DNA of 64,000 bases from Buxus sempervirens (taxonomy: Eukaryota; Streptophyta; Magnoliopsida; Buxales; Buxaceae). Below are positions 14,009 to 62,536 of the stretch, piece after piece. Position 1 is the first letter of the stretch; each line of letters opens with the position of its first letter. The DNA lies in contig OX387183.1 in the NCBI GenBank assembly GCA_947561395.2, positions 2,241,883 through 2,305,882 on the forward strand, given 5' to 3'. The notes beneath the pieces were generated by a model. That model was not told the DNA's origin. It saw only the letters and a list, made by a program, of their open reading frames with translations, and made no database searches. Position numbers and translations under genes: made by a program.

Positions 14009-16035
<2,027 letters not shown>

Positions 16036-16089
16036 GAATGTGGTTGAAGTTTTTTTTTTTTTTTTGATATGAAGACGGTTCACACTTGA

Positions 16090-23985: not shown

Positions 23986-24535
23986 GGGAAAATTATGAAA
24001 AAGTGCTACTTTACAGCCAATATTTGAAAAGCATGCCATAAAGATGCGTAATTATAAAAACATGCCACTTTTGAGAAATAATTACGGGAAGGGGTCATTA
24101 CACATTTACCCTATTTGGAATGCCCAAATTACCCCTGAATAACAGGGGGGGAACACGTGCGTGTTTCCCTCTCGTCCTGTTTCTCTCTTGTCTCCTTTGC
24201 TGTGCGAAAAATACCAGGGTCGACGAACATCTACTTCCCTGTTTCTTCCTCTCTTCACCGGCGAACGCGTCTTGTTTCCCCACTAACATTTTCTTCGTCT
24301 CCAAGGCCGACGAACCGTGACGAACATTACCCCATTCTCCTTCCCCATTGACCTCTTCTTCTCCAAAAAACCCCTTGCTATCTTGATGAAACCCTCTCCT
24401 TCCCCCATTCCTCTCTTCGCCGGTGAATGCAGGTTGTTTCCCCACTCACATTTTCGTCTTCTTCAAGGCTGACGAACGCCGACCAACTTTCCCCCATTCT
24501 CCTTCCCCATTGACCTCTTCTTCTCCAAAAACTCC
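23986..24535 (+). repeat. left terminal inverted repeat of the giant MULE
   Basis: Pairs with 61990-62536. The outer 160 bp (to about 24146) is the best conserved. Inside it two diverged direct units of about 170 bp follow, each with TTGTTTCCCCACT and CCATTGACCTCTTCTTCTCC; the right TIR has the same pair. The inner edge is approximate. Confidence 0.88.
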
Positions 24536-28865: not shown

Positions 28866-28867
28866 AC

Positions 28868-28885
28868 TGGCGACTGCGCTGGGGA
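28868..28885 (+). other. primer binding site of Tat element 2
   Basis: TGGCGACTGCGCTGGGGA lies two bases after the 5' LTR end, beginning with the TGG expected opposite a tRNA CCA tail. It differs at two adjacent bases from the site of Tat element 1. Confidence 0.85.
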
Positions 28886-32540: not shown

Positions 32541-32822
32541 CATTTGTACCAACCACTTCTCCTCACAAAGTCAATTTCGATCAAAACAAAAAGAAAAAAA
32601 AAAGAAAAAAAAAAAGAAAAAGTTTAAAAATAAGAAAAACAAAAGAAAAAATTGTAATTCAAACTCATGTTCACCCAAACATGCATACATGCATTCTTGA
32701 AAGTGTGTGAGTTTAACTTGAAATATGCACTAATTGTGTTTCCTTTCTTTTATTTCACAAGGTCTTCGGCTCCTACCTGAACCATTGCTCCCAGGCGCTC
32801 TCAGAGACTAAGATCTGCCACC

Positions 32823-35032: not shown

Positions 35033-37771
35033 TTTCAATAAAGGCTCTTGGAAAAGAAAAAAAAAGATTTTTCCTTAAACATTTTTTTAGAAGTAAAAGA
35101 AAAAAAAAGTTTTCAACAGGGTCCTTTTTACTTATGAGTCATATCTCCCATTAAATTTCATGAAGTTGAATATAACTTCGTTATTGGGCTCAATTTCGAG
35201 ACCAAAATCGAAGAAAAAGACACTCTAAATGAAAATTCAAATCTTTTAAGTGTCATGAGAAGAATATTTTGCAAAATTTTGAAATGACCAATCTTATGGA
35301 CTTTGGAATCAAAGATGACCCGGAGTTTTCACTTGAAAGTAGCAAGTACGGAAATTTATTTCATATGGATTCAGAGAGGATTGCATCACTTGCTCATCAA
35401 GGAGAAGCCAATGGAGAAGAAACTAAAGGAAGAAGTTTTTGCATATGAAGATGACTCCTAGTTTGCATTCTGTATTGGAAAATATGGAAAGATTTGGTTC
35501 CTTGGTTGAGATATGAACTACGAATCAGCTACAAAGTCTAATGAAAAGGAAGCTTGATTTAAGAGCCTGATCAGATGAGAATGATGTTTTGTGGTTGAAA
35601 TTTTATATGAATGGATTTCCATCTTGACAGGTGGCGGTGATAAAAAAAAAAAGAAGAGAAAAGAAGAAAGAGAAAAAAAAGAAGAAATGGAAAAATCTTG
35701 AGCCAGTCATGTAGCGCAACTCTACTAAGTCTGAAAATTCAAATTTTTCTTAAAATGATAAGAGGCCTTTCTTTCTTATATCCCTGAAATCTTTGAAATC
35801 CCTAGTTAGACCTTCTGAGCTTTATAAATTTTTTCCAAATAACCTAAACTGGGAATTGTAACCCCACACTGGGGCAAATTTATTAAGGCATGAAAGGACA
35901 AATAAAAAAGAAGAAGAAGAAGGGGGCACTATTGAATTTCAAAACGGATTTTGAAGATGTTTCCAGAAAGGGGGGCAAAGAAATGAAAAAAAGAAAAAAT
36001 AAGAAGAAGAAAGATGAAAAAAAAAGATCATCAAATGCCATGGGATATTTGGAGAATTTCTTCCGAAAGGGGCAATAAAAATTGCAAAGAGAAAGAATGA
36101 AAAAAGAAGTTCAGTACCAGGGTGAAAGTTCTAAAGGAAGAAGAACTTCAACACTGGAGGCAATTTTGTATTCCAAGGAAAGAAATGCCATAAGAATTAC
36201 AATCTCAGTTAACCCATTTGATCATATGGTGTTTGAGCCTTTTATCCCTTTTCTTCCTAAACAAAAACCAAGCCTACATTTTGTCCCATTCATAAGTCCT
36301 CTTTGATTAAGAAATTTTGAATTAAGGCAAGTATGACTACATTAGCTTCTGGTAATGAAGGATTAAAAAGAGAAAAGAAAAAAAAAAGAGAAAAAAATGG
36401 AGAAAATGTAGTGAAAACCTGGAAGGGCGCTACATGGCAAATGATCAACCATTTGCAAGGAGAAAACCAATGGAGTCATATGAGAAGAGAAGTCCATGAT
36501 TGTCATGAAATATGAGGGAGTTTTCATATCATGGATGTAAGAAACAACTTTTTCAAGTTGAAGGTCTTTCCAAACCGGGGCAAAATGGTCAGATTGAAAG
36601 AGCTGTCATTTCTGAAGCATCAATGGACAAGCCAATGGTCATGGGAATGATTCTAAAGGTTCCGAAGGCTTATTTTGGTCTTTTTTCATTTTTTGAAATA
36701 ATCTTCTCATTATTCAACTTGATTTTAATTCTTTTGGACTATATGCTAATAAGTGATTGGACCATTTTCCAAAATAAAAAAAAATTTATAAAAACACAAA
36801 AAGGCAAAAAACTATATTTCTGGCCTATGATGAGCATCTATGACTTTTCATAAAACATTGGTTTTGCAAGCATTAGAGAATTCTGACGCTACTAGTATAA
36901 AACATATTTTTTTATATGCACTTTTGCATTCTTTTATAAGGATTTCTTTTTATAAAGGCCAAAAAAAAAAAAAAAAAAAAAAAGAGAGAAAAAAAATTCA
37001 TCTCTGCTGTGAGGTAAGTGCATTTCCAAAGCATCAAGGCTGGGGCATGCTCAATTTCCTTTGCTTCTGAATCCTCAATGAAAGGAATCGTATCATCTTA
37101 AAGATTTGGGAATGCCTCCAAACAAGAGCCCTTATCTTTCAATCATGAAGATGGCATTCAGTTTGGTAGTAAGAAGGCATGAAAGAGAGAACATGGGCAG
37201 TAAGGGTATGAGGTTAGATCAACAGATCATGATTCTCAAATCCAGCAATCAAGAAAAGAGCATACACTTGGGCAGTTAAAAAGCATCAAGGCAGGCTATG
37301 GGCAGCAAGGGCACATACATCATTAGTGAGAGAGCAGAAAGATGAAAAAGCAAAAGCAAGTTGCAGAATATTCAAGCACAGGTTTGGGCAGCACATGGCA
37401 CCCAGGTGAGTTAATAAAAATCAAATCATGGAAAATTCAATGAAATATTTCCTTCCTTATTGTTGAGCTGAAAAGTGAAAAACATCAAAAGCAATTGAGT
37501 TTGCAGAGGTCAATTTTAAAAACACCTTCTTTTTAAAATTTTGCTTGTCTCAGATTTCTTTTCATAGCCACAAGAGCTTCAAGAAATCTGAGATAAGGAA
37601 GAGATGCCACCCCATCAGACTTCTAGCAGGGGTTTCATTGGTTATCTTCAAATCCATGTTTTTTATCACTCATTTGTTTGACCAAAGCAAGTTCAACTGA
37701 TGAGATGTCTTTCAAACGTGCAATTTTGAGTTGTGTCTATTCTTTGCTGTTCATTGTGTTACAACTCCAGC
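35033..37771 (+). other. post-gag region of Tat element 2, purine-rich, no pol
   Basis: 2.7 kb with strong purine bias on the plus strand (GAAGAAG and A-run clusters at 35640-35690, 35905-36035, 36365-36410, 36961-36995). Short lysine-rich open frames come from this bias. No RT, RNase H or integrase block is visible on either strand. Such non-coding 3' filler is typical of non-autonomous LTR families. Confidence 0.65.
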
Positions 37772-37780
37772 AAAGAGGGG
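37772..37780 (+). other. polypurine tract of Tat element 2
   Basis: AAAGAGGGG, followed by TAGT and then the 3' LTR start at 37785. It primes plus-strand DNA synthesis in the family. Confidence 0.75.
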
Positions 37781-37784
37781 TAGT

Positions 37785-40612
37785 TGTAGACACCCCAAAA
37801 TTGCACGATTTTCGATAAATCTCGAAGGAGAGAAATATTTTATTGGAATTTTCAATTCTTAGCATTGTGTTTGAGATCCTTAACCCATTTGAATCCAAAG
37901 ACGCAAAGGAAAAGGCCTGAATTCAATCTTTTATGCAAATTCAAACTTTTTCGGGTTGAATTTTGTTGACTTTTGACCCAAAAAAATGAAATATTTTTTT
38001 TAAGCAAGATTTAAAGATAATTTTTCCCGGTAATCAAGTTTTTAGCAATGTTATTGCATAAATGAATTTTTTGAGATTTTAAATCTTGACGAATACCTTG
38101 GTATTAACATGTTGAATCTTTTTATTGGACCTAAAAAATCAGAATTTAGCCTGGAACTGGAAAGTTGACTTTTTATTCACTTGGAATTTGGGTCTGGAAC
38201 TATTTTTAATGGATTCAAATGGGGGGGGGGGGGGTGTTTGCTTATTTTCTTAAACGATATTACATATAAATAAGCCTGGCCTGTGCAGTTAAGGCTCAAA
38301 CCAACCAAAAATGTGCTGATCGTAGCATATGTGCGGTTTTGGTTAATTTGGTCTGAACAGTCCTGTGTGTGCGGTTTCGATCGTGCATACAATGCGGTTT
38401 GTGTTCATGCTTCTTGTGTGAGCTGCCACGTGGCTTCTAGAAGCTTTGGCCGTTCGGCCACGTCGACAGCAATCATGACGAGCGTAACTGAATTGGAACC
38501 GCTTTGGATGTGCGGTGGAGGTAAATTTGCATAGAAACCGCACATATAGTGACGGTTCTGTGGAAACCGCACTGTGTATGCGGTTTTGGTTGTTTCGAGG
38601 ATTTGCGAAATGGCTCGATCTCTGAGCCTTATTTACGCATATTACCTCTCTCTCAGGGACTTGAACTCCCTATTTGAGCCTCCGAAACTTGCGAAATTAC
38701 TCCAATTCAAGCCTTTAAGGAGAATTGGAATAATCTAGAAGAGCTTTTAGGCATACCCTTGGGACTTTTCTACCCTTGGCTTTGCCTATAAATAGAGGGG
38801 TCCTCCTCTTGCAAAAGGCTGATAATTTGAGGCTTAGAAGCTTTGCAAGAAGAAGGGAAATTCTGCTGGATTGTCTACTAAAGGCCCAAGCTACTAAAGG
38901 TAAAACTCCATTTGGTTTTCTTGCTTCCTATTTACATTTCCAACTCCCATCTTCTACCTTTCTGTAGTGTAAGGCCCTGGATATTTCTTTGAAGCCCCAA
39001 ACCTCTTCCAAAGTACCTGGGAATCCTCTCTAGCCGTAAAACGTGAAGAAAGAGCCTGGGGAAAAGGAAGATGGAATGGATCCTCTAGGCATAGAACCCA
39101 TTTTGAATGGCATATTGATATTATTTTGAGCATGTTTTTCTAAGCTGATTGTGTTTGGAATCTGGAGAAAACATTATGATCAATGCTCTTGGTAGCATTT
39201 GATCTTTGTCGTCTCCTAAAAATGTGGTTTCCACACTATCACACACTTTTCACTATCTTCATCAAATAGGCTAGATCTTGGACCTTCCATGTTCAATATG
39301 GAAAATCTGAGATCCTAGGCCTTAGAATGAACTTTTAGGACTTCATGAGTTGTTTTTCATGATTTTAAGTTGTTTTGGTTGAATCCACTTGCACACATGC
39401 ACTGATTTTGGCTTTTTATTAAAAAATCTTCAAAACAGGGCAGCATCTGTGGCCTGTCTTAGAATGCTCATAACTTCATCCTCCGGATGAATTTTTGAGT
39501 GATTCCAAAGACCTGTGATAGATGGAATGGCATAATTTATATCTGGAAAATTTAGCTCATTTTTATGGAGCCATTTTTTGACACCATTTGTTCAAAGTTT
39601 GTAAGTCAGTTCAGCCCAAATTGCTGAACTTGCCGCTTTGATGGTGCACCATTTGCACAATTTTAATCCGTTTCAAGTGATTTTAATTTCTGAGTTTTCC
39701 TTGAGAAGTCTATTTGCATTTCCAACTGGTTTCAGCAGATTTTGATCCGATTTGTGACTTGTGTGCTTGATGGACTCAGAGTTGCTCGCTGGCATAGTCC
39801 AGAGCTAATCTGTGGTCTTCTAGGCATGTTCAAGAGAGCACACAAGCCACATCTGGATGGAGTTTGGTGTGAGGTTTATCTCTTTGGAAAGGTGGCACCA
39901 CATGCTTCATCCATGTAAAGTTTCATGAATTTTTATAGAGCCAAACTCCACGAATAAGGTTTTGAAAATGCCTACTCACCACTTTTTCCGAGTTATAACA
40001 GCAGATTTCAGATGTGGATTTCCCTCTCGTTTTAAATTGGATTGAGCTGAATTTTTTACTGTATACTCTACTATATACCAGTTTTCAAATGGTTTTGGTT
40101 TTTATTGGATTTGGATTTAAATTGAGTGAGTTGTGGTTAATCGAAGCTTTCAAGTTCTTTTGGTTTGATTTTTCTAGATTTGCCTTGGCTTGATTTTCTT
40201 CAAACTTGACTTAGATATTCCTTCGCTCATGAAATTCTGAAGTGATATATCCATGAGAAGTGTCCAAGTTCATTGGATTACTCATTTGGAATAATCACAT
40301 ACATTTTGCTTATTTTAAGCATCTCTTGTTTAATTTTTTATTAGCAAACAATCCTTAGCATAAGCAAGCATGTGGCAACTGTCTTAGACGGATGAGTGGG
40401 GGTGCCTAACACCTTCCGGACTCATAAATAATTACCCTTACCTGATCTCTGGATTTTTTTCCTTGTATTAGAGCCACTTTGGTCTATTTGGCTTTTATGA
40501 ACCCTTTGGTGTCCATTCACACCTTAACTTGGATGGTGGCGACTCTTTATTTTTATCGATCCCCGCGTGACGATATCGGAAGTCATCCCAGGTGACATTT
40601 CCATGTCTCACA
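37785..40612 (+). repeat. 3' LTR of Tat element 2
   Basis: 2828 bp from TGTAGACACCCC to TGTCTCACA, followed by the GCTGA target duplication. Very similar to 25987-28865 along its length, slightly shorter because the hairpin region is smaller. Confidence 0.92.
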
Positions 40613-40617
40613 GCTGA

Positions 40618-41375: not shown

Positions 41376-43436
41376 ATGGATTTTGCATGGGATAAGGAGC
41401 GGGCAGATGATGTCACTCACGTGCCGATAGATATAGATCCGGTAAGGCACGCCATTGCATTATTTCTTTTATTTTACAAATTCTTCTATACATCTCCTTT
41501 CATCAATATGTTTTCATTGTCATAGGTATTACGAGGTCATATTGTTCATATGATTGGCTTTGCCCGTGACTTCACACGGCATTGTACCGACTTTGCCGCC
41601 TCTTTAAGCCACTCCCAGCCACATCTACCACCTCCAGATGTCGAGCCCGACCGGCCTTCTTGTGATGATGTGCCTCCTCCACCACCTCCAGATGCCGAGC
41701 TCGACCGGCCTTCTTGTGATGATGTGCCTCCTCCACCACCTCCAGATGCCGAGCCCAACCGGCCTTCTTGTGATGATGTGCCTCCTCCACCACCTCTAGA
41801 TGCCGATGGCATGGTTGATGCACACCCAGATTTTCCATCGCCTCCTTTTGCTGGAAGTGTACCACATGATAAACCCGCTACTACATCTGAGGGTCCAAGT
41901 ACTATGCAGTCTTGTCCCAGAGGTAGAGGGAAGCGAGTAAAGCACATTGCACAGAAATTGAGGTCACCCTTTGTTGAGACGCATAGATTCCCCCCATTAC
42001 CTGAACCAGAGACAAAAGCGTGGATGTATGCCATGACAGGGGGGTCGCCGATGTAAGTATATATCTTCTGTGATTAACAGTAATTAAGAGATTTACACCA
42101 TTCAATATTGTGTTCATAGTTGGTTATTGTTTTTTTTTTTTGGCCTTATAAGTGGAATTGACGCATGCAGGGAAAAACTTGTTGATTTCGATGTTTGCTA
42201 TGCGACTCGGGGAGAGCTAGTTGGTCTTTTTCCATGAGGAAGGATTAGCGACCTGGTAAGTTTTTTGTATTGAAAATTGTATCATTTGTTTTAGGTTACA
42301 ATGGTACTTGGATTAGTTTTCTCACTAAGGTGACTGTGGAATAGGTTATGCACATGTATGTGATTGCCCGTGTCAAATCTACGCGGGATCATGCATCAAC
42401 TATCTGTCGTCACTATATTACACCCTACACATCTGTATGTATACAGGATTGTATGTTAGTACTCTTACAATAAATAATTATCAATGCATATGGAGTACTA
42501 CAGCGGACTAATATATTATACTTGTGATTTACAGGGTGCAACCCTAAAAGGAACATTGACTGTAGAAGATGGTGTACAAAGTCAATTTTCATGAGATGTT
42601 CTAGGATGTAGTTTGCTTCGATGTCATATGGTATGATAAACTTCGAATATTTTATTACTCTCACTTACATAATTATTAACGCATAGTACACCTTGTATTG
42701 TCATTTGATAGGTTTTCCTACCGATCTTGAGGAGGAGCCATTGGTTCTTGGTTGTTTTGAACATCAAGGAGCAACGGGTCAAAGTGCTAGATTCGATACC
42801 GAAGAATCGGCCTAATGATTATCGTGCTGTATCAATGAAATTGGTATGTAAAGAACTATATAGTTTCAATGTATTATATAATTTGATATTGAATGGTTCA
42901 ATTTTCATTGCAGACAAAGTTTTTTGCAAAAGTCTTTGAGGAGCTTAAACCTGGCTGTGACAAAAGAGTGCAGGAGTGGTCACTGCTGCCTGTGTCCGTG
43001 CCCTGTCAAAGTAGTTCATAAGTTCCCAACTTTATCACTCATATGTTACCATAAGTTACATGAGCATAGATATGATATTAGATAATGCCCTTAGGTTGCT
43101 TATTTGGTTATTTCCATTGACCCCCAATAACACCCGTATTTTCTAGTTATTTGCCATGTCTACCTTGTCCTGATGTCTTCCATTTGTTGTGTAGTGACGA
43201 TTGTGGTGTATTTGTAATGAAGTTCATGGAATATTGGGATGGGCATCAATTGTCGACTAGGTTTGGGCAGGCAAGTATATATTTTCATATGCAACTTGAT
43301 GTGGTTAAGACTTACACATTTTTTTATAGCAAGTGTTTCATTTAAATTGTAATAGGAAAATATTGGACACTTTCGGAAGGAATTGTTAGCATACCTGATG
43401 CTCCACCCTGCAAACGAAATCAAGTACCTGTACTAA
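41376..43436 (+). pseudogene. Ulp1-type cysteine protease (C48-like) of the MULE, decayed
   Basis: Exon reading: 41376-41441 (MDFAWDKERADDVTHVPIDI), 41526-42052 with proline-rich repeats, 42153-42255 (GIDACREKLVDFDVCYATRG), 42345-42434, 42535-42630, 42712-42843, 42914 to about 43007, about 43194-43268, and a last exon ending in ANEIKYLY at 43436. The Ulp1 signature is present: catalytic His in RRSHWFLVVLNIKEQRVKVL with the Asp in LDSIPKN, a Gln in VPCQ, and the nucleophile in DDCGVFVMKFMEYW (Cys codon 43202-43204). The Ulp1 family cleaves SUMO-type conjugates; plant MULEs of the Kaonashi type carry such domains. In-frame TGA codons at 42235-42237 and 42592-42594 and an unclear splice before the Cys exon indicate decay. 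One intron appears to use a GC donor (CAG/GCAAGT at 43266). Confidence 0.8.
41637..41800 (+). repeat. 54-bp coding minisatellite in the Ulp1-like gene
   Basis: Three in-frame units of 54 bp encode the 18-residue unit DAEPDRPSCDDVPPPPPP with small changes (DVEP, DAEL, DAEPN). A fourth partial unit follows (LDADG). It forms a proline-rich linker before the protease part. Confidence 0.9.
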
Positions 43437-43734
43437 TTGAGAAGCTTAAACCTTCCCGATTCAGCAGTTCTTTCTCTAGGTCCTGCTCAAGTGTTCCAAC
43501 ATGGTTATGCTGATAATTTTTTCCATTCACTATCCTTGCTATTTTTCTGTTTGAACTTTTTACGAGTTGTAATAAATTATTTTACAATTACTAAGGGTTC
43601 CAAGGGCAAAAAGCAATCCATTGGCCTCGGTTCCTTTTAAATTTTTATGATATTGAATGAAATTTTATTAGTGTTTATCCCGAGTCAGCAGTTTGCGATT
43701 ACATGTTTATCCAAAGTCAGCAGTGATCTCAAAA

Positions 43735-44250
43735 CTAGCTCGTGTCTAACAGATCCTTAGCTAGAGTCCCACGTATCCTTAGTTCGAGTCCCACGTCTCC
43801 TTAGTCCCATGTAAAATAGCTCGACTCCCACGTATACTTAGCTCGAGTCCCATGTAAGATAGCTCGAGTCCAACGTATCCTTAGCTCAAGTCCCACGTAA
43901 AATAGCTCGAGTCCCATGTATACTTAGCTTGAGTCCTGAGTATCCTTAGCTCGAGTCCCGCGTAAAATAGCTCGAGTCCTACGTATCCTTAGCTCGAGTC
44001 CAACGTATCCTTAGCGTGAGTCCCACGTAAAATAACTCGAGTCCCGCGTATCCTTAGCTCGAGTCCCACATAAAATAGCTTGAGTCCCGCGTATCCTTAG
44101 CTCGAGTCCCGCGTAAAATAGCTCGAGTCCCACGTATCCTTAGCTCGAGTCCCATGTAAGATAGCTCGAGTCCAACGTATCCGTAGCTCGAGTCCTGCGT
44201 AAAATAACTCGAGTCCCACTTATCGTTAGCTCGAGTCCCACGTAAAATAC
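43735..44250. repeat. CTCGAGTCC minisatellite
   Basis: More than twenty tandem units of about 21-22 bp alternate between AGCTCGAGTCCCACGTATCC and AGCTCGAGTCCCACGTAAAA forms. They lie between the Ulp1-like gene and the GRF gene. The unit resembles the 5' coding end of the GRF gene (GCTTGAGTCCCATGTCC at 44490). Confidence 0.92.
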
Positions 44251-47545: not shown

Positions 47546-49628
47546 GGACCTGCATTCACAGATTTCTCATTGACTTAAGTAACTATACAGAACAAAGACG
47601 AAACAAAACCAATTTTGAATGACAAGAACAGTAAACACATGTTAAGTATTTATACAATTCTACTACAATCTCGTTTCTACAAGACTTGGTTCTCGGAACC
47701 AGGTCTAGTGCGGCACATACTGTGCGCGTGTCGGAAACGCCACAAGGGAAAATTCGGAGTCGCCACCGCCTGATGGGGTGCAGGCGGACACCTGGGTGCC
47801 TAATCTTGTCTATTAAGGCTTGGTCTGCGGCTTGAGATTCTAAGTAGGGTTTCAGTTGTGGTCCGGTGAAGTCCGTAGACACCCCGGTCCACCCTGTCGG
47901 GTGACGGGTCCCCTAGGTTTATCCTGGTTTGAATCAGCTCACTTATTTTCTCACCCGATTCCTAAGTCGGTATGCAAACTGGTTAAGTCTGGCGGGACCA
48001 CTTGAGTGGTGTGGGTCTCTTTAATTGCTTTTATCTTGATTAATTAGGTAATCTGAGTTTGGTTGTGTGGGCCCCGTTGGAAGGCCCACGGTGTCCTAGG
48101 TGGGCTTGGTTAAGCCCACATGCCTCTGGTGGGTCTCTGCCTAAGCCTGGGAGGCCCTTTGGACTTAGGTGAAATGAATAGATTTTACTTAGTTTATTTA
48201 AGTTGAAGACTTATGTGATTTCCATGCAACAAGTGGGTCTGCATTGGTTTGCGGGCCCCTGGGTGAGCCCCCACTATGGTTGCCAAAGTATTTCTGGATT
48301 TGTCTTGTTTAATTGGCCAAAGTGAGTTGGACACTGGGCTTGGGGCCCGTAGTCCAAAATTGGGCTTGAAAGCCCAGTTCTCCGAAGTCTAGGGTTTGCA
48401 CCCTTCCTTGGTTCGATTAGTGGGCTTTGGCGGACCCGATAGGCCCTTGCCCTTGGTCTCGGCCAAACCACACATTTCATACATCAATTCACCAATAAGT
48501 TCGGGTAGGCTGCATTGGGTTTGGCTCGCCCGGATTAATCAATTAATTCATTTATTTTGCTTAGGTCACATGCATACATTCCATTGTGTTCATTCGGCTT
48601 GGTGGGCCCCATTGGAAGGCCCACTGGAAATCAAATTGGACCGGGGGTCCAAGTCCTATGTTGGGTTTCCGGGTGACCCGGAAACCCTATTGGTTCATTT
48701 GGTTCGGTTTAGAAATGCCATCCACATCCAGAAACAATCACATAATATACATCACAGAAAATATACAAAACTGACATTTATCAGGGGAGATCGGCTCACT
48801 ATTTTGGGTCCAAGGGGAGGGACCTACGGCCCCTCCTTGCGCCAAGGAATGAGTTGGGCGTGTGCAGAACAACGGGGTTGGGGGTGCGGGGGGGCGAAGC
48901 CCCCCGCGGCAGGGTAAAGGGTATTCCTAATCGGGCCTTGGGCTAAGAGATTGAAGCCTTGAAGCAGCAAAAATGGAGCTGGGTTGGTGGTCTGCATGCA
49001 ATTCAGCATTTAAGAGGGTGCGTTGACCTCAGGCGCTCGGCGTGAGGTCAGCACGAGCTCGATGGAACTGAAAATCAACAAAAAAGGCACCCGGCGCGAG
49101 CAAGGCGCGAGCTCGGCGGGCGCGAGCTCAGTGCCAGCTCGGCGAACACCCCTTTGCGAAGACAACTCTCTGTTTTTTTGGAAAACTCCATGACTGGCTG
49201 GGTTTTTGAGCTCTGTAACACCTCCCGGTGTTCCCCAGACTCCCAGAAGACCTTTAAACATGCATCAAAATTAATCTAACATACTTTGAATCACGACCCA
49301 AGATCCCTTTACAAAAAAAACAAGCCCGACTATTATCAAACAACTACAGACAACTACAGACTAACGGCTCCAGGGGGTAATGGGGGGTGATGGGAGCATG
49401 CAGCAGGCACACAGGCAGGGGGTTGGGGGGAGCATGTTGGCAAGTCTAGCAAATATGCAAAGAAGAAAAAAAAACAATGACGAGCAGAGATCGCATGTGT
49501 GAAAGACAAATTTTTACCTACGCCGGACCGGACCTCCGTGCATGCACGCAACACTCGAAGAAGGGAAGTAGAAAGGGGGGGGGGGTTTATATGGGGTACA
49601 CAGGACATGCTCGAAGCGAGGGAACAGA

Positions 49629-52287
49629 TGTAACGCCCCGGATCCGAGTCACATGAAAAACCCGTAACTCGTCTCCAGAGGTTATTATAAAACACAGGAT
49701 CGCAATATCAGAGTGAAGGAAAAACATGAATACAACAGTAGCTATATAACAGAGTGCGCTAAAATAATCCCAAACGAAAATAAACTCACATGACCAAGAA
49801 ACTACCCGCAAGTATCGTCCTCTCCAGGAGCAGCTGAAAACAAAACAAAACAAAACAATACGGAATGAGATACGAATATCCCAGTGAGCAGCACATGCAT
49901 GCACAAATACATTTATTTCAGTTCTAAAACATGCCACGATTATAACCATGTACAATGATGATAATACGCATATTCCGAATAATCCGACTAAACTTCAATA
50001 ATCCAATTCATATCAGTGCGGAAAACTATCAGGTAAATCAAGCAATAACAATCCGTTTCCAATCCCGAAGATATCGATAAAATAATGATTAATTGGCAAC
50101 AACGTAGCAAATAAGCATAATTTTGTATCTCAAGATATAATTCCAGATATACCAATGTCACATAACACCAAGTCTTCTCATAACCATGCCCACGCCTCCA
50201 AATGTATATCCGGCCTACTCAGGGTTTCGGATATTGAAATGACTGTGTCATCCAATGCAGGCCTACTCCCTGGGTTTCTGCATTGACAACCAGACCTACT
50301 CAGGGTTCCTGGCTGCTCTACACCGGCGGGAGGTACAATACCCAATAATCGGTAAACAATATTCCATGAACCATAAATACCAACAAACCAGCGAATAAAA
50401 CATATCACGTCAAACCAAATCAAGTACCAACATTGGTCAATGTCATGACTATTGTTCAGTTGATAAATTAAACATGCCAAGTAGACACTCCACACCTCCA
50501 TGTACACAGTTCCGGCCTACTCAGGGTTTGGGAAACTCTGAAATGACGGCCTACTCAGGGTTTCGTCATCCAATGCAGGCCTACTCCCCGGGTTTCTGCA
50601 TTGACAACCAGGCCTACTCAGGGTTTCTGGCTGCTCTACACCGGTCGTGGCAACACACAAGGCCATGCAATTTCAACAACCAACAATAACATCACATTAC
50701 TAAGCTTAGACTCTGGATCCAGGACAAGCTAGACCAAAACAGTAAAACATCGTATAATCTCAATACCAATATCAAAGAAAAACCATTCATTTCATATAAT
50801 GTAAAACTCATCACAATTCATCACCTGTCCCTCTGGACCAAGCAGTACCTCAAGTACATTCAGTAATTTCTCATTTCCGTAACACAATTCATATGGAAGT
50901 AAAACTCAATGCATTCATACCAAGGAAATCCTTTCAATACATTTAAAGTTTCTAACAAGCGAAACCAGAAATACAATAACTTCTCAATCAAAACAGTGTA
51001 TAGAACAAGGAAAAGCAACTGGTAACTCTTACTAGTTTGGTGTCCGGCACAATACTCATAAGTAACCTAAACTCAACTTAAAAACTCTTAAGAGGTTCAC
51101 TAAATTTTTCCTCTAATAATTTCATAGGCAAAATGGTTTCTCAGGTTCCTAACCAAGTGAATAGTGAAGTGGTTTAACCCCTAAGTAATGCAAATACTCT
51201 TGGTCAAATCAGAAATTCCATTTCAGTAAGCAAAATAGGTCTGCCGCTCACCTACTGAGGTGGGCGCGAGATTCGCGCGAGATGGGCGCATCGTTTTCTA
51301 CTTCGCGCGAGATGAGCGCCAGCCGGGCGCGAGCTCGGCGGTAGGTCGTTGTTAATGGGGCGCCTACCTCTGAGGTGAGCGCCGGTGAGCGCGAGGTGAG
51401 TGGATACCCCCTGTGGTTTTCATTTCTCTGTTATTTTGAGATCTACATGACTGGCCGGTTTGTGAAGGTCTGTAATTACTCCAATACACTCCTAATACTC
51501 CCAGAAGACTTCCCAACCATATTTGGAATTAATCTAAACACTTTCATTTTCAATTATAAAATTAAATCCGGAGACTCTGTTCATGTAACTTCCCGAAAAC
51601 CAGAAAACCCAGAAAACTCACACTATCACTTTATATATAACCCATGCATCAGAATAATCTCGAGAGAAACAGAAAACACAAATCCCAGTTGTAAATCAGT
51701 GCTACTCACAAGTATACGCTTAATCCGAGAAACAAAAGCTTATTCCACAGCCGGCCGAGCATGACTTCCGGCTGCGCGCGTGGATGCGAAGGTCACCGAA
51801 CTGATCCCCTGCTCGCGAGAGGAAAAACCCACTGAAATCTGGATCTCCAACTCCACTAATCCAGTCGTAGCTCTCACGGTTCTCATCTCTTCCCAGAGAA
51901 ACCCTAATTGCCATAGTAGCCGCAGAACACCAAACCTCTTCAGTTATAAAAATATGATGCGAGCATTCCAAACCAAAAACCTAATTTCCCCTTTAGTATA
52001 TATACCTTCCACACGCTCCCATGCGTATTGCCGCACGACAACCTTTTAAAAGCCTTGATCCTGTGCATGCTCGCCCACTGAAAACCCTACATTTTCCCGC
52101 ATCCACTTAAGCTTATTCTCTTTGACAACTAATGACCACAAATCTCCAGCAATAAACAAATTTTGATTAAGCCTGTCCATAAATCCATGTGTTCATACTT
52201 TTGCATATATTTTATTTTACCTACTATTTTATATTGTTTATTATTTTTATTTTTATTTTTTTTTCTACTCAAAACTGGGGTCTTACA
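49629..52287. mobile_element. solo LTR nested in another LTR, TSD ACAGA
   Basis: 2659 bp starting TGTAACGCCCCGGATC and ending GGGGTCTTACA, with exact ACAGA target duplications at 49624-49628 and 52288-52292. No internal retroelement coding part remains, so it arose by LTR-LTR recombination. Part of it (51.25-51.56 kb) is related to the host LTR at 49.0-49.3 kb, both with GCGCGAGCTCGGCG-like words. Confidence 0.88.
50205..50645. repeat. internal repeats of the nested solo LTR
   Basis: The phrase GGCCTACTCAGGGTTTCGG and close variants (CCTACTCCCTGGGTTTCTGC, ACCAGACCTACTCAGGG) occur in two blocks (50205-50330 and 50510-50645) with CATTGACAACCAG and GGCTGCTCTACACCGG in each. Confidence 0.8.
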
Positions 52288-53550
52288 ACAGACTCCCTTT
52301 ACTAAATAATCTACAAAAACTCTCCGAACGGTGGCCTAAGGTGGGATGGTCAAGCTTCCAATCGTCTCATGGGGTCTCCCTTACCCTTGGAGACTTCCAT
52401 GTTACCAAAATAGAAGGACGTGCATGTTATGTCAAGGAGAACGAAAACAAATCTGGTAATCTGCTTATCCAAGTCCCACTTTCATACATGTAAAGTAAAA
52501 CTGGGCGAGGAGCAATACCTAAGAGTTCTTATCTCTTTTGTGGAAGCATGTGACCTCCTTCAAGCAAAGACACTAGCGGTGAGCTTCTTCTCCAATAGCT
52601 ACGGTGAGTGGCTCCTCCGACTTTTGGTAGAAGAGTGAAGAAGAAGTAGAGAAGAGAGAGTAGGAAGGCAAGGTCGGGTGCTTGGGGAGCTAGGGAGGCA
52701 AGGCAGGCCAGGGAGAGGAGGTTCCCGAAAACCAAAAGCCAACAAAAGGAGCCCAACCAACAAAAGAACCGAAAATCCCAACCAAAAAGAGCTAACCCCT
52801 AGCATCGAAGTGGGGTGCGGTTTTTATAGAAAAAGGAATTGGGTCCGCCAGGTTGGCACCGAGCTGGCACTGAGCACTTTTCGCGCTTACCTTGCTCGCG
52901 CGAGCAAGGCATAATGATTGAAAAACAATTAATGCGGCCGCTAAATGGTCGGGAAATCGGGTATTTTCGGATGTAGTCCCTGGAAATTTTTGGTTTAATC
53001 CGATATTCTTGGATATTCACAGATTTGGTCCTTGGATATTTTTGATTCAATCCCTGGGATATTTTGTATGTTTGGATATTTACGGATTTGATCCCCGAGA
53101 TATTTTCCTGCTCAACTTGCCACGTGTGCAGTTTTCCGGTTTTGCTACTCGGAAACTTCAGCAGCTCATATCTCCATCTGGACTCCGATCTGGGCAAACT
53201 CAGTTGCGTTAGAATCGTATCGGAGCCCTCTATCCAATGACATAGGGGTAAGCATCTGGATCGGGGTTTAGCAGAAAGTCAACTTTCGGCTCCTCCTCAA
53301 GACCAGCCTGCAGAACCTTCATCTGGACTCCGATTCCTGCAAAAATGACGTGCTTACACATACCATTTTACCCACCCATTTGGGATACATAAGCGATAGC
53401 CATTTCATACTCGTCCTTCATCATGTGCAATGATGCACGCATGCGATCCAACGCTTGTTGGGATACTTAACAATAAAGTATTCATAATTTAGAACATTGT
53501 AAAACATGTCAACAACGTCGACGACCCACGTAGGGGGTGACAAGTCATAC

Positions 53551-55081
53551 CGGATCAATCCCTAGAATAGGTCCTTCATCAACATCTCTAACTCCTTCCT
53601 CAGCACGCACCGTGAGTGCCACCACCTGCATTGACTACACTATATTAATAGCCCATCCACAATAGACCATGTAGAATATGAAGGGGCATAGAAAATGATG
53701 TTTTACCTCCCCATTGCCATAGCCGCCCGCTGATTTTTCAGCCTTCTCCCGTGACTTCACACAATCATCGTCCAACCACCCCAGACGTGGCGTTGGACAA
53801 CTTGATTCAATATCACCAAGCCATACAACTTCATAGTAGAAAAGCAGAAAGGTTAAGAAAATATGGGACATCATGGTGTTTTCAGCATATACTTGTCGCA
53901 TTGAACCAATACAACCAAACAACCAAACAACCAAAAACAAATCAGGGACGAACATACCTGTAAAAATAGGAGGCATCCACCAATGTTGGTTTTTTTTCTC
54001 CCGATATATCACAATTTCATTAAACAACACATCAAGTACAAAAGCAGCCCAATTGTACTGCCCAATCCTACTAATATTAGTTACGGCATGCAGAAAATGA
54101 AGCTTCACGTGTGGGTTCAAACCCGGGCATAACAAACATCCCACAAGAAATAGTACAAATGCTCGTTGAAAGGCATGGCCGGACCCTAGAGTGGCCAATC
54201 TGGACTTTATATCATTTAGTGCTATGCCATGCCTATCAAAAGTAAAGCTTGCACGAAGCTGGGCAAGTTGCTCACTGGGACCATCTATGACAACCTTGGG
54301 GCCTTCGCTCCTAAGGCCCAAGATGGTACTTATAGCAGCGGGGGTAATGGGGACAACCGGGGACCAATCCTCAAACTACGACTATGTACATCGATGTGGT
54401 CTACTAACCAGGCGCAAAGCTTCACACATAGGGATGTGCAGTGCATCTGGAGAAGAGAACCAAATCATATCTCAACAACTACACGTCACTGGTCCTCGTC
54501 AAGCGAAGTCACGAAATGCACAAATCGCTTCAGGGAGCATCTTGTTCCCAGAGACGCCTACACTTAGATAAACATGTGTTAGTATAACACAACTGCATAC
54601 AAAACATTCATAATGTTCAAGAAATCAAGTTATACCTTTCCTCTTGTTTTTCCTGTTGGAGTCGGAGCCGCTGCCAACCATTCTGTCATTCGTTCATTAT
54701 ATAATTCTTTATACTTCTGCTTTGCACTATCATCCATCGCTTTCCATAGCCCTTGTGCCTCCTGCGTGATCTACAAAATAGTGATGCCACTGTATTTATT
54801 ACAATTGACATTGTAAACATTATCAACTGATATATAACACTTTAACTAACTCACCGTCATGACATTTATGGAAGACCTACTACCCCGGCACGTTTGAAGG
54901 TACTCATTCCTGTAAGAAGTAAGCATAACATTAGAAATCCCCTTAGTTCGGGTTTGGAGAGTAAAACAACAATGCTTTATCAGTTTATACTTCATCACCT
55001 AAATATGAGGAAGGCGTTGGCAGGACGCGATGGGCCACTAGAAGAACTAGCGGACACGACATTCTTCTTGTTCTTACGCAT
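53551..55081 (-). pseudogene. HMG-box plus plant mobile-type domain protein of the MULE, decayed and cut at its 3' end
   Basis: Exons on the minus strand: 54999-55081, 54855-54909, 54636-54770, 53707-54557, 53551-53625, all with GT-AG introns and matching phases. Exons 1-3 together encode an HMG box: SRPANAFLIFR, NEYLQTCRGSRSSINVMT, ITQEAQGLWKAMDDSAKQKY, then KELYNERMTEW. Exon 4 encodes a transposon-type domain seen in Ulp1-bearing MULE proteins: CSLKRFVHFVTSLDEDQ, FGSLLQMHC, LCAWLVDHID, then FQRAFVLFLVGCLLCPGLNP and IGQYNWAAFVLDVL. Exon 5 ends GPILGIDP, like the first exon of the Ulp1 gene at 41376. Two TGA codons (54486-54488, 54465-54467) and a frameshift near 54345 show decay. An LTR begins 8 bp into the next intron, so any protease part is lost. 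HMG boxes bend DNA; a role in transposition is inference. Confidence 0.72.
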
Positions 55082-55532: not shown

Positions 55533-58500
55533 CTATATTGAAGCTCTGCAACTTGCTCGGTTGTGTCCAACACCCTTGCATCTGGAACAATGAACCTGTC
55601 GCTTGTCTTGGAATTGAGATTCAATGCTCTTCTGCTTAGGGCGCCCTGGACGTCTTGCTATCTTTGGTGGGAACGAGATAGATGGGGTTTCACTTGAATC
55701 TGCTATGGAAACCACGCCGATGTCCTCAACCATGGGGAAGTCATGTGTTGGCACAACATGCATCAATTTGTCGTATATCAACCCTTGCGTTGCCTTGTGG
55801 TAACATAGGTCGACAAAGTCATACACATTGAGCCTTACCAAGTTCAGGACGGCACATGTGTGTGCACAAGAAATGCCCACCATCTGCCACTGTTTGCACG
55901 TACACTCACGACGGGTTAAATGCACCATGATATATGTCTCATCACCTCTAACTTCGTATTCGTGTTGCCCACATTGAATGACACCCAACCCCAATGCTCT
56001 AGTGAGATTCTCCTGAATCTTGGTATCAATTCGACCACCGACATTGGACGCCTACGTGTCAATACAACTCTGCTTCCTCACCAATAGCTCTGTCAACTTC
56101 ACTCGATGTGCATCAATAAACCGCATTACAGGCAATTTCCTTTCTTCCACCATCCAAGCATTGAATGACTCCGCTAAATTTGAATTCAGCTTATCCCACC
56201 GTTTCATAGGGAACAATGAATTTGCCCAATGTTCGGGCCCATTTCTCCTCACCCAGTCAGCTAGGTCAGGTGCATATTCATGCATGGCAGCCAATGCCTT
56301 ATCGTAGTCCTGAGGGAGCCTTGTGTAAGTGTAGACACTCTAAAATTGCACGATTTTTGGTAAATCTTGAAGGAGAGAAATATTTTATTGGAATTTTCAA
56401 TTCTTAGCATTGGGTTTGAGATCCTTAACCCATTTGAATCCAAAACCGCAAAGGAAAAGGCCCGAATTCAATCTTTTATGCAAAGTCAAACTTTTTCGGG
56501 TTGAATTTTCTTGACTTTTGACCCCAGAAAATGAAATCTTTTTTAAAGCAAGATTTCAAGATAATTTTTCCCGGTAATCAGGTTTTTAGCAATGTTATTG
56601 CATAAATGAATTTTTTGAGATTTTAAATCTTGATAAATACCTTTGTATCAACATGTTGAATCTTTTTACCGGACTTGTAAAATCGGAATTTAGCTTGGAA
56701 CTGGAAATTTGACTTTTTATTCACTTGGAATTTGGGTCTGGAAATATTTTTAATGGATTCAAATGGGGGGGGGGGTGTTTGCTTATTTACATGTAATATC
56801 TTAAGTAAATGGAGATTAAAAAATACGAGGACATTTACTTAAACGATATTACATGTAAATAAGCCTGGCCTGTGCAGTTAAGGCTCAAAACCAACCAAAA
56901 ATGTGCTGACCGTAGTATATGTGTGGTTTTGGTTAATTTGGTCTGAACCGCCTTGTGTGTGCGGTTTCGACCGTGCATACAGTGCGGTTTGTGTTCATGC
57001 TTCTTGTGTGAGCTGCCACGTGGCTTCTAGAAGCTTTGGCCATTCGGCCACGTCGACAGCAATCATGACGAGCGTAACTGAATTGGAACCACTCTGTATG
57101 TGCGGTTGAGGTAAATTTGCATAGAAACCGCACATATAGTGACGGTTCTGTGGAAACCGCACTGTGTATGCGGTTTTGGTTGTTTCGGGGATTTGCAAAA
57201 TGGCTCGATCTCTGAGCCTTATTTATGTATATTACCTCTCTCTCAGGGACTTGAACTCCCTAGTTTACCCTCTGAAACCTCTAGATTTACATCAATTCAA
57301 GGCTTTAACTTGAATTGGAACAATCTAGAGAGATTTTTGGGCATACCCTTGGGACTTTATTGCCCTTGGCTGTGCCTATAAATAGAGGGGTCTTCCTCTT
57401 GCAAATGGCTGGCAATTTGAAGCATTGGAGCTCTGAATGAAGAAGGGTCCTCCTCAAGTGTTCAAGCGACCAAAGGTAAAGCTCTAGTTCATTTCTTGCT
57501 TCTTCTTTACATTTCAAATCCCAACTTCTACCTTTCTGTAGTGTAAGGTCATTTGGTGATTGTTTACAAGCCCCAAACTTCTTCCAAAGTACCTAGGAAT
57601 CCTTTCTAGCCGTAAAACGTGAAGAGAGAGCCTTGGGAAAAGGAAGATGGAATGGATCCTTTAGGCTAGAACCTACCTTGAACGATTTTCATGTTATTTC
57701 TATATACTGATTATTTGTGCTATTTGAATCTGGAGAAATCAACATGATCCATGCTCTCAATAGCAATGGATCTTAATTTTCTCCTAGATATGTGTTTTTC
57801 ACCTCTACACACACCTTCACTATTTTCATCAAATAGGCTAGATCTTGGATTTTCCATGTTCAATATGGGAAATCTGAGATCACTGGCCTTAGAATGATTT
57901 TTAGAACTTCATGAGGTTGTTTTTCATGATTTTAAGTTGTTTTGGTCGGATCCACTTGCACACATGCACTGATTTTGGCTTTTTATTCAAAGCTCTTCAA
58001 AACAGGGCAGCATCTGTGGCCTGTTTTAGAATGCTCATAACTTCATCCTCCGGATGAATTTTTGAGTGATTCTAAAGGCATGTGATAGATGAGTTTGTCT
58101 AGTTTGTATCTGAAAATTTTCGCTCATTTTTATGAAGCCAATTTTTGACACCATCTGTTCAAAGTCTGTAAGTCAGTTCAGCCCAGATTGCTGAACTTGC
58201 CGCTTTGATGGTGCACAATTTGCTCAATTTTAATCCGTTTTGAGTGATTTCAGTTTCTCTGTTTTCCTTGAGGAGTCTACTTTCCATTTCAACTAGTTTC
58301 AACAAATTTTGATCTGATTTGTGGCTTGTGTGCTTGATTGACTCAGAGCAGCTCAATGGCATAGTCTTGAGCTAATCTGTGATCTTCAAGGCCTATTCAA
58401 AGGCGCACACAAGTCACAACTGGATAGATATTTGGGTGAAGTTTATTTCGTTTGAAAGATGACATCACATACTCCATCTATGCAAAGTTTCATGTTTTTT

Positions 58501-60676
58501 TCTGGAGCCAAACTCCACGAATAAGGTTTCCAAGTTGCTTACTTGTCGTTTTTTTCTGATTTACAACAGTAGGTACAGATGTGGATTTCTCTCTCATTTT
58601 AAATCGGATTGAGCTGAATTTTTTACTGAGTACTCTATTTCAAACCAAATTTCTAATGGCTTTGGTTTCATGAGATTTGAATTTAAATTGAGTGATTTGG
58701 GGTTAATCGAAGCTTTCAAGTTCTTATAATTTGAATTTTATAGATTTGCCTCAAATTGGTTTTTCTTCAAATTTTACTTGGGTTTTCCTTCACTCATGAA
58801 GTTATAAAGTGGTATATCCATGAGGAGAGTCCAAATTCATTGGATTACTCATGTTGAATAATCACATGCATTTTGATTATTTTAAGCATCCTTTGTTTAT
58901 TTTTTTGATTAGCAAACAATCCTTAGCATGAGTAAGCATGTGGCAACCGTCTTAGACGGATGAGTGGGGGTGCCTAACACCTTCCCCCACTCATAAATAA
59001 TTCCCCTTACCTGATCTCTGGATTTTTCCTTGTATTAGAGCTACTTTGGCTCTATTTGGCATAGATGAACCCTTTGGTGTCCATTCACACTTTAACTTGG
59101 ATGGTGGCAACTCTTTATTTTTATCGATCCCTGCGTGACGATATTGGAAGTCATCTTAGGTGACATTTCCATGTCTCACAGTAAGCAATATCATCAAGTA
59201 ACCGTAAGGCAAATTTCTTTCCCTCTTTCAAATGAAGGATACGACGAATTTACTAAAGTTTTCCTTCAGATGTCGAAGACAATGAGAGTGGTTCCTAGCG
59301 CCAAAGGTAGCACTTACTGCAGTTATAATGCTTTGATTCCTATCACTTACAATGACTAAATCCTCTCTGGCACCTATGGATGACTTAAGAAGTTGTAGAA
59401 ACCACATCCAATCCTCATTATTCTCAGCATTAACAATTGCAAAGGCAACTGGAAACATGCCGTCATCAGCATCGAGGGCTGTAGATGAAAGCAACGTGCC
59501 CTGGTATGGCCCGCTAATATGACTTCCATCAATGAACAGCAGTGGTCTGCAACTGACCGCAAATTCCCTCAAGGAACAACCATAAGCAATAAAAAATTGC
59601 TTAAATTTTCCATCTTCACTTGCTGACCAATTTGCCACTGTGCCAGGATTAGTCTCTTGCAGCCGTTCACACATTGATGGGATGAACTTATAAGACTCCT
59701 CCACATTACCATCTGTCCTCTGTTTCGTCTTTTCCTTGCTCCTCCAACATTGATGATATGTCAATGGCATTGCATGATCATGATAAAAGTCCTTGCCAAT
59801 TTGCCGTGGCAAGTAACTTGGAGTGTTCCTAATTGTCTTCTCAATTACACTCGAAAGCCACTTCGTTCTCACAACCGGTTTCATAGACAATTGGTCTTGG
59901 GCTGAGTGTCTATGCTCCTTCTTAAACTTCATCACCCTCATAAAACTCGTATTCCTCACACGTCTTGCAGTTACCTTCCAAGGACAATCCGTGCCTGCAC
60001 AACGGACACTAATGTATGCTGGACAATTTTTTTTCATCACATATTCAAACCTATTGGCAATGGCATGCTTGTACACTACTTCTCTAAACTCCTCAGGGGT
60101 CTTAAATATCTGGTCGACCTTAGTAATTGCATCCTGCCACAAGCTAGATACAAGCGGACCTTTGCTGTATTCAGTGCAACTTTCAAGAAGCGGAGTCTCC
60201 CGATCCTCTACTTCATCGTCATTGCACGGACGTACAGAGTGACCACTTAAAGGTACACTCGTCCTGAAATTACAAAATATATGACTATCACTACATGTAA
60301 TATGGAGGAAACATAATACCATGTACGGTTAATGAAAATTACCTTTGACAAGTGTCTCGTTCTTGTGATGATCCTTCATCATAATAGACATAAATGTTGG
60401 CCCAACCCTCGTTGTAGCGAAATAGGTACGATAACACATCTTGATTAGTGAGTGCCAGTAGAACGCTCTTGTCAAACTTGACTGAGTACTCATACTTACA
60501 CTCACCGGGGATATATTCAATAACCGACAAACAGCTTCAACTACCTCAGTATAATTCATGTTGCTATTTAGATCGATACCCTTACTACTTCCTCCACTAT
60601 ACCCCATTGACCCATCTTCCTTGGTGATTACTTGTCCTCCAATGTGACAAAAACAGAATAGAATCGTTGCTGACAT
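55533..60676 (-). pseudogene. MURA-type Mutator transposase, decayed and split by a solo LTR
   Basis: Exon 1 (60343-60676) has a PB1-like N-terminus (GGQVITKEDGSMGYSGGSSK; then KYEYSVKFDKS in a shifted frame). Exon 2 runs from 60263. It has a WRKY/GCM1-like DNA-binding finger (VRCAGTDCPWKVTARR ... KEHRHS) and the MULE DDE domain, with the first Asp in LLFIDGSHISGPYQG, the second in IVSDRNQS, and the C2H motif HSHCLRHLKENF. It is then interrupted by the LTR at 56330-59180. It resumes with ADWVRRNGPEHWANSLFPMK, NSNLAESFNAWM, a SWIM finger (CTCKQWQMVGISCAH) and a zinc knuckle (CSRCKGVGHNRASC), ending at 55533. Disruptions: a frameshift near 60535, another near 59205, and a TAG at 56052-56054. 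It would cut and rejoin the TIRs. Confidence 0.9.
56330..59180 (+). mobile_element. solo LTR of the Tat element 2 family inside the transposase gene
   Basis: 2851 bp from TGTAGACACTCT to TGTCTCACA with exact GTAAG target duplications (56325-56329 and 59181-59185). Closely related throughout to the LTRs at 25987-28865 and 37785-40612, including the G run and hairpin (56765-56863) and the TGCGGTTT cluster, but more diverged from either than they are from each other. It lies in the second transposase exon between the DDE second Asp block and the ESFN block. Confidence 0.95.
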
Positions 60677-61850: not shown

Positions 61851-61989
61851 GGCTCTCCAACGACCAATGCCTCAATGTGTGCAAACAAAAAAGGGGTTTC
61901 GATTATAGAGGGTTAATGAACGATGGAGAGGGAAAAATGAGCGAAACAAATGGAGGAGGAGAGGGTTTCGTCCACATAGCAAGGGGGTT

Positions 61990-62536
61990 TTTGGAGAAGA
62001 AGAGGTCAATGAGGAAGGAGAATGGGGGATAGTTGGTCGGGGTTCGTCGCCCTTGAAGAAGACGAAAATGTGAGTGGGGAAACAACCTACATTCACCGGC
62101 GAAGAGAGGAATGGGGGAAGGAGAGGGTTTCGTCCAAATAGCAAGGGGTATTTTGGAGAAGAAGACGTCAATGGGGTAATGTTCATCGGGGTTCGTCGGC
62201 CTTGGAGACGAAGAAAATGTTAGTGGGGAACAAGACGCGTTCGCCGGCGAAGAGAGGAAGAAACAGGGAAGTAGATGTTCGTCGACCTTGGTATTTTTCG
62301 CACAGCAGAGGAGACAAGAGAGAAACAGGTGCGTGTTTCCCTCTCTTCCCACACCACCACCCCCCCTCCCCCCCTTCTTTTATTCAGGGGTAATTTGGGC
62401 ATTCCAAATAGGGTAAATGTGCAATGACCCCTTCCCTTAATTATTTCTCAAAAGTGGCATGTTTTTATAATTACGCATCTTTATGGCATGTTTTTTGAAT
62501 ATTGGCTGTAAAGTAGCACTTTTTCATAATTTTCCC
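61990..62536 (-). repeat. right terminal inverted repeat of the giant MULE
   Basis: Inverted partner of 23986-24535. The outer part, for example AAATTACCCCT near 62390 and AAAGTAGCACTTTTTCATAA at 62508, mirrors the left end with few changes. The two internal direct units with GTGGGGAAACAA are also mirrored. The inner edge is approximate. Confidence 0.88.

Follow-up and report, generated by a model that had tools for sequence, protein, structure and literature searches.

MULEs rank with the most mutagenic elements of plants; to our knowledge, the way in which their accessory proteins recognise element DNA is little understood outside VANC. The closest described systems are the VANC and KAONASHI (KIU) genes of Arabidopsis VANDAL/KI MULEs. 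In the parts of the articles cited here, VANC proteins are described as removing silencing and as binding tandem repeats that belong to their own elements (PMC5735166, PMC10398659), and KIUs are Ulp1-carrying VANC genes (PMC13317346). In KI-MULEs, the Ulp1 domain lies in reverse to mudrA, according to section 10 of PMC2528002; the passages of that article on the Ulp1-bearing MULEs of grapevine, melon and rice place Ulp1, in one orientation or the other, downstream of the transposase, report it from TIR, non-TIR and Jittery-like MULEs, and make no mention of an HMG box. The cited portion of PMC5418596 describes PMD-C domains captured by MULEs in grasses and Amborella, ascribes a function in silencing to PMD proteins and proposes MULE capture as a means of anti-silencing.

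The gene described here is, like KIU and VANC, a non-transposase gene of a MULE, and its predicted product carries an HMG box followed by a PMD-type domain. Tandem repeats are the targets of VANC, and arrays adjoin the gene here; the Ulp1 sequence of the family to which our locus belongs (family A) is on the strand opposite to the HMG-PMD gene, just as the KI-MULE Ulp1 is reverse to mudrA. Unlike KIU/VANC, the gene has an N-terminal HMG box, and a PMD rather than a clear DUF1985. Moreover, KI-MULEs are called non-TIR, whereas family A has TIRs of 1.2–1.3 kb. The PMD-C MULEs also have a PMD within a MULE, with a suggested anti-silencing role, but in the passages cited the PMD is fused to the transposase (PMC5418596), whereas here it is part of a separate gene with an HMG box.

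Full-text literature searches yielded no description of a MULE-encoded HMG box among the best-ranked matches of broad queries; no described plant MULE protein with an N-terminal HMG box was known to the original prediction. Tpn1, an En/Spm-related element of morning glory, reportedly contains a captured HMG domain sequence (by title), and is thus an HMG sequence in a plant DNA transposon as well; there, it is captured genomic sequence in another superfamily, whereas here the gene has been retained in six MULE families. The presence of Ulp1 and PMD in MULEs is already known, as is (by title) that of an HMG sequence in an En/Spm-related element.

The host MULE in the window and its HMG exons

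The window (the whole stretch of 64,000 nucleotides that was analysed) is part of contig C3 in a genome of 676.5 Mb, a plant's judging by its content, and carries a copy of family A, which we have compared with c4, an intact copy of the same family. The host MULE and its contents are as follows.

23986–62536, minus strand: whole host MULE, 38,551 bp; both ends align to intact c4
61984–62536, minus strand: TIR at the transposase end; its identity with the inverted copy 23986–24535 is 88% (approximately 550 bp)
23986–24535, plus strand: TIR at the other end, pairing with 61984–62536
59228–60328, minus strand: first large coding piece of a MURA-type transposase (PF10551, 59.6 bits; PF03108, 52.9 bits)
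55533–56339, minus strand: C-terminal transposase pieces with a SWIM zinc finger (PF04434, 20.4 bits; cut-off 19.6), aligned to c4
56330–59181, strand not given: solo LTR of the same retrotransposon family as the next entry, inside the transposase gene
25987–40613, plus strand: nested LTR retrotransposon, foreign to the MULE, with direct repeats 25987–28864 and 37785–40613 (some 96% alike)
47721–53357, strand not given: further insertion in the 3′ part of the HMG-PMD gene, a gap in the c4 alignment
42712–43297, plus strand (opposite to the HMG-PMD gene): Ulp1 (C48) remnants, 83% and 88% identical to c4 pieces by tblastn
43732–44249, strand not given: minisatellite with a 43-bp unit and a sub-period of approximately 21–22 bp

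The HMG exons had been predicted to sit inside a MULE, which is borne out by the TIRs, by a target duplication matching at eight of nine positions in the flanks (TTCATTTTT / TTGATTTTT) and by the MURA-type transposase domains. The element owes its length of 38,551 bp to nested insertions. The nested LTR retrotransposon includes a gag-like ORF (33494–35032; named by eye), and the solo LTR separates the C-terminal transposase pieces from the first piece. The paired LTRs are some 96% alike and the solo LTR is 86–93% like them (87.6% identical to LTR 25987–28864), so that the succession of the insertions could be worked out. As it stands, the window copy is dead, because its transposase is split and the PMD exon has stops and a frame shift, with a lost acceptor behind it. 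The exons of the HMG-PMD gene in this copy are the following.

54999–55081, minus strand: HMG exon 1 (83 nt), from the ATG to RPANAFLIF plus 2 nt
54855–54909, minus strand: HMG exon 2 (55 nt)
54636–54770, minus strand: HMG exon 3 (135 nt), helices II and III
53958–54557, minus strand: exon 4, PMD-type domain, broken by in-frame stops and a frame shift; its intact counterpart is c4 8525–9127
53707–53844, minus strand: exon 5 remnant, its acceptor AG lost in the window copy

Exons 1 to 3 have GT/AG borders, keep the frame and are spliced to a predicted peptide of 91 aa without a stop. The peptide matches the Pfam HMG_box profile (PF00505) at 44.4 bits (E = 2.2e-11; cut-off 25.4) and also exceeds the cut-off of HMG_box_2 (PF09011; 23.9 versus 22.4 bits), so that the reading of three small exons with exact splice phases as an HMG box is upheld by both profiles against which it was to be checked. 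Amongst PDB entries, the window peptide matched the boxes of mitochondrial ABF2/TFAM, BBX and HMGB1; the four best PDB rows were repetitive designed proteins, without any stretch passing alone, and were set aside as meaningless. When seven boxes from families A to E (the further families are introduced below) are combined into a profile, HMGB1 is the best PDB match (E = 4.2e-15), and the matches include entries 6cij and 6oem, which we take to be RAG-HMGB1 complexes. The fold residues S12, R19, P20, F27, Y31, A51 and W55 are invariant in the seven aligned boxes. The Asn in RPxN is typical of sequence-specific HMG boxes, but the label "SOX/MATA-type" given to the box at first is not established, the seven-box profile being closest to HMGB1. 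As for the next exon, predicted to encode a transposon mobile-type domain, the assignment stands for the protein predicted from c4 (PMD, 48.3 bits) but not for the window itself, where the exon is broken and its longest open piece scores 25.5 bits against PMD (PF10536), under the cut-off of 34.9.

Intact elements of family A and the linkage of HMG and PMD exons

Searching the genome with the HMG peptide yielded 218 matches. Three young copies (c1, c4 and c12) are elements of 21,236, 21,423 and 22,041 bp, mutually 98.8–99.5% alike over their longest shared stretches, and the TIR pairs within them are 99.7% (1282 bp), 98.9% (1216 bp) and 99.8% (1216 bp) alike. The 9-bp target duplication is exact at c1 (ATTGAATTT), lies in an A-run at c4 and is imperfect at c12. 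The transposase exon of the young copies codes for 646 aa and has MULE, MuDR and SWIM domains (PF10551 in c4: 61.5 bits); among the transposase matches listed, 13 out of 69 are 99–100% identical, one of these 13 with a stop. A second gene begins about 460 bp past the transposase stop. In our own exon reading, c4 exons 1 to 5 are spliced to a predicted protein of 338 aa in which HMG_box (46.5 bits) and PMD (48.3 bits) are both over their cut-offs; exon 4 alone reaches 39.5 bits for PMD. An intact homologue with the architecture originally proposed, HMG box and PMD in one predicted spliced protein, is thus found in c4.

The splice sites were counted in 30 loci, the best HMG-peptide matches with the window copy included, a start codon not being demanded. 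The three HMG exons and their six splice dinucleotides are intact in 21 of them (one of the 21, L018, is without the ATG), and exon 4 is intact too in 11 of the 30. For linkage, we took the 79 exon 2/3 matches that rank above the first exon-1 match, the best of the 218 HMG matches (omitting the lower exon-3-type matches C15:21438257, C11:30296500 and C19:16226281), and 150 PMD matches, split into 80 closer and 70 more distant ones. In 70 of these 79 HMG places, a PMD exon follows downstream on the same strand at 200 bp or less, and in 76 at 10 kb or less; for C3:29327593, one of the three places without a PMD in this count, a separate search found a PMD match just downstream. The transposase is linked as well: a family A HMG match follows within 1.5 kb downstream in 49 of the 69 transposase matches listed and, in a family with 65% identity (family B, below), the PMD is located 1003–1011 bp downstream in all seven transposase places.

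It had been foreseen that the HMG exons might turn out to belong to a separate gene; in the loci examined, they directly precede the PMD exon. That two neighbouring genes, one HMG and one PMD, are involved rather than one fusion is highly improbable: the joint of exons 3 and 4 is predicted from the DNA, but exon 3 of c4 runs without a stop into a GT donor, an AG acceptor 78 bp on opens the PMD exon in frame, this GT/AG pair is kept in most of the 30 copies, and the spacing of HMG and PMD matches is exactly 79 positions in 57 of the 79 places. We infer, therefore, that the HMG and PMD exons are spliced into one protein. Copy number, conserved splice sites and linkage all support the predicted architecture of an HMG box and then a PMD-type domain inside a MULE, as do the five further families described below.

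Family A elements contain other coding pieces. In a young element, a bZIP basic region (L038:2262-2669) scores 30.1 bits, over its cut-off, beside a sugar-transporter-like piece at 12.1 bits, under cut-off; this stretch of L038 is without a counterpart in the alignment of the window copy. A GRF-type zinc ribbon (L038/L041; c4 14214–17265, minus strand) is just below its cut-off (24.0 versus 25.9 bits), and ABC-transporter-like pieces were recognised, by eye only, in the same interval and strand of c4.

Diverged families and the age of the fusion

Amongst the 70 more distant PMD matches, we examined 13 loci with PMD exons 43–51% identical to those of family A. HMG exons in the same three-exon layout are recognisable in 12 of the 13, which we have grouped into family B (L047-L049, L058, plus L059, the member without HMG exons), family C (L050, L053 and L057), family D (L051, L052 and L054) and family E (L055 and L056). 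Family F came from an unguided genome search with the Pfam HMG_box profile, in which 150 of 240 candidates were scored and four places were reported: one of the four, L003, proved to have a PMD-like exon and to belong to an HMG-PMD element. Of the other three, L002 and L004 are, judged by eye, ARID-HMG genes and L001 is, on the same basis, a 3xHMG-box gene, the exon of which starts at another point of the box. Recent capture of a host HMG gene is disfavoured, the host genes found in this search being of the ARID-HMG and 3xHMG-box types.

All five further families (B to F) share the three-exon box, with PMDs roughly 40–51% identical. Exon 3 measures 135 nt in families A to F, and exon 2 is 85 nt long in E and 55 nt in the other five, by which a chance choice of splice sites is also disfavoured; the points counted against this rejection are the GC donor of family C, the loss of the intron 1 AG and L059 without HMG exons. 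The HMG peptides of different families are 16–38% identical. Family F (47.2 bits), family B (27.1 bits, L048) and family D (27.6 bits) are above the HMG_box cut-off of 25.4, family C (25.3 bits) is 0.1 under it, and family E, below it at 18.5 bits, exceeds the HMG_box_2 cut-off (26.1 versus 22.4 bits). A stop inside the HMG box occurs in single copies (L047, L053 and L055), and the acceptor AG of intron 1 is lost in two of the three family C copies. In L050, L053 and L057, intron 2 of the box starts with GC, a possible GC-AG intron. The same three-exon box recurring in five more families with PMDs of some 40–51% identity points to a fusion that is probably old rather than recently captured.

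The family F element (L060, L003 and L061; contig C3, about 14.962–14.976 Mb; some 13.4 kb) has TIR pieces 97.5–98.1% alike, with AATATATAT at both sides (by eye), and a FAR1-type MULE transposase on the other strand (PF10551, 100.6 bits). Pieces of a MURA-type transposase adjoin the HMG-PMD gene in families B and D. The accessory gene, hence, accompanies two kinds of MULE transposase, FAR1-type in F and MURA-type in A, B and D. Neither element ends nor a transposase came to light within the 19 kb viewed for families C and E; TIRs with a target duplication are established for family A.

The original prediction knew the mobile-type domain from Ulp1-bearing MULE proteins; the place of Ulp1 differs between the families. 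In family E, the HMG box, the PMD and a further segment are followed on one strand by a C48 protease, which has THWF, LDS and DCGVF motifs (His/Asp/Cys) and scores 51.7 bits for C48 on the peptide we spliced ourselves. In family F, the protease is degraded to two short pieces downstream on the same strand (E = 2e-6 and 0.002), one of them with a stop. In family A, including the window, Ulp1 is on the strand opposite to the HMG-PMD gene (C48 in the c4 piece: 26.5 bits; cut-off 20.7), and Ulp1 was not found in families B, C and D within the DNA fetched (4 kb for D).

Candidate roles of the accessory protein

With about even confidence, we propose a MULE accessory protein akin to VANC and KIU, in which the HMG box forms the N-terminal, DNA-binding head. 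The second, non-transposase gene of an old plant MULE group would encode an HMG box, a PMD/DUF1985-like domain and a further segment; the box would bind element DNA, either the TIRs or the 21–22-bp minisatellites, the PMD/Ulp1 part may act there on chromatin or on SUMO-modified host proteins, and the protein would work in trans as an activator or anti-silencing factor, as VANC and KIU do. What can be read in the DNA of this proposal is the architecture, the copy number, the transposase linkage (families A, B, D and F) and the presence in six families of one genome. Several findings count against it. PMD is over its cut-off in family A only (families B to F: 10.5 to 32.8 bits versus 34.9, the family F value coming from a 110-aa piece only). 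DUF1985, a VANC domain whose weak matches in E and A otherwise speak for the proposal, is matched far below its threshold of 35.1 bits (16.8 in E; 12.2 in A). Finally, neither TIRs nor arrays show enrichment of the SOX/LEF core WWCAAWG: it occurs five times in the family A TIR (2.5 expected; reached by 17 of 200 shuffles), 54 times in the whole A element (46.7 expected; reached by 7 of 40 shuffles), three times in the family F TIR (2.2 expected) and less often than expected in the arrays. An element-encoded HMG box joined to a silencing-linked PMD, with a SUMO-type protease added in one family, nevertheless makes a concrete candidate for a DNA-binding module, near-identical intact copies of which are present in one genome.

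Alternatively, the HMG box could be an architectural cofactor that bends TIR DNA for the synapsis of the ends of a 21-kb element, replacing the help of host HMGB, a role that we regard as possible but rather unlikely; bringing long TIRs together, or targeting insertion, was the function suggested in the original prediction. HMGB-type HMG boxes bend DNA, the closeness of the seven-box profile to HMGB1 extends to 6cij and 6oem, and the element is very long, with TIRs of 1.2–1.3 kb; host HMGB1 is, moreover, reportedly a DNA-bending cofactor of Sleeping Beauty. However, the gene accompanies two very different transposase types (MURA and FAR1), and bending would leave the PMD and Ulp1 parts unexplained. 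In Sleeping Beauty, the HMG-box helpers of a cut-and-paste element, HMGB1 and HMGXB4, are host-encoded, whereas here the box is element-encoded, which suggests that a DNA-architecture domain borrowed from the host by Sleeping Beauty may join a transposon and persist for long.

The second of these helpers is the precedent for a SUMO-switched co-activator, whose HMG part would drive transcription of the element and whose Ulp1 part would strip SUMO from it or from host partners. In the part of the source cited, host HMGXB4 activates Sleeping Beauty transposase transcription, SUMOylation weakens this activation, and SENP proteases take the modification off again (PMC10138897). HMG and C48 are on one strand in family E, with weak, degraded pieces in F; the absence of Ulp1 from the DNA fetched for B, C and D, its opposite strand in A and a precedent from animals only make such a co-activator distinctly unlikely.

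A still less probable reading is that of a passenger, in which case the element would have captured a set of host HMG exons in the distant past and would carry them without function. MULEs do capture gene pieces, family A carries the bZIP piece over its Pfam cut-off and others recognised by eye, and a work of Takahashi (1999) reportedly concerns, by its title, an HMG domain sequence captured in a CACTA-related element. Between the young copies and a consensus of 14 older ones, the HMG exons have an omega of 0.38 and PMD exon 4 one of 0.31, neither value being significant at 5% in a simple neutral simulation (P = 0.12 and P = 0.06, the former counting in favour of a passenger); pooled over all pairs of 16 copies, omega is 0.46 (HMG) and 0.63 (PMD). 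Purifying selection on the HMG exons is suggested by these values, and the survival of the box across families would be a stronger argument for constraint than omega. The three exons, the intron places and the exon-3 length persist at 16–38% peptide identity in boxes that still score as HMG boxes, which argues against a neutral passenger, as that would have decayed; the box is also intact in the 21 of 30 copies counted above.

For an accessory protein of the VANC/KIU kind, the arrays next to the gene are candidate targets. Minisatellites are located downstream of the HMG-PMD gene in families A, B, C, E and F, their position between TIRs being shown in A and F only.

L038:6671-7753: downstream array, family A
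L070:1430-2371: downstream array, family B
L067:775-1776: downstream array, family C
L069:4498-5870: downstream array, family E
L061:516-1665: minisatellite, family F, 108-bp unit with weak peaks near 22 and 42

The basic period is 21–22 bp in the arrays of A, B, C and E (in B, by the tandem-repeat finder only), and family D has no array of this kind in 4 kb. The word GGRTACAA, absent from the A and F arrays, occurs 16 times in that of B, 24 times in C and 56 times in E, as against 0–0.21 per kb elsewhere in the same DNA; it was noticed after looking and is, therefore, a lead rather than a test. The arrays of B and C have four common words among their top 40 seven-letter words (0.4 when permuted; none of 500 permutations reached four). 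None of the top-40 words of the E array is common with B or C, and its likeness to them, hence, rests on the degenerate word. In a further reading, HMG-PMD(-Ulp1) proteins would bend their own 21–22-bp arrays (two DNA turns) in phase into a landing platform for anti-silencing or transcription, each family having its own protein–array pair; we consider this unlikely. Outside the MULE, the window also contains a 48-bp tandem array at 6988–7917 (AAAAGGTCTGAAATTCAAAGGCTTTCAGAGGCCC...).
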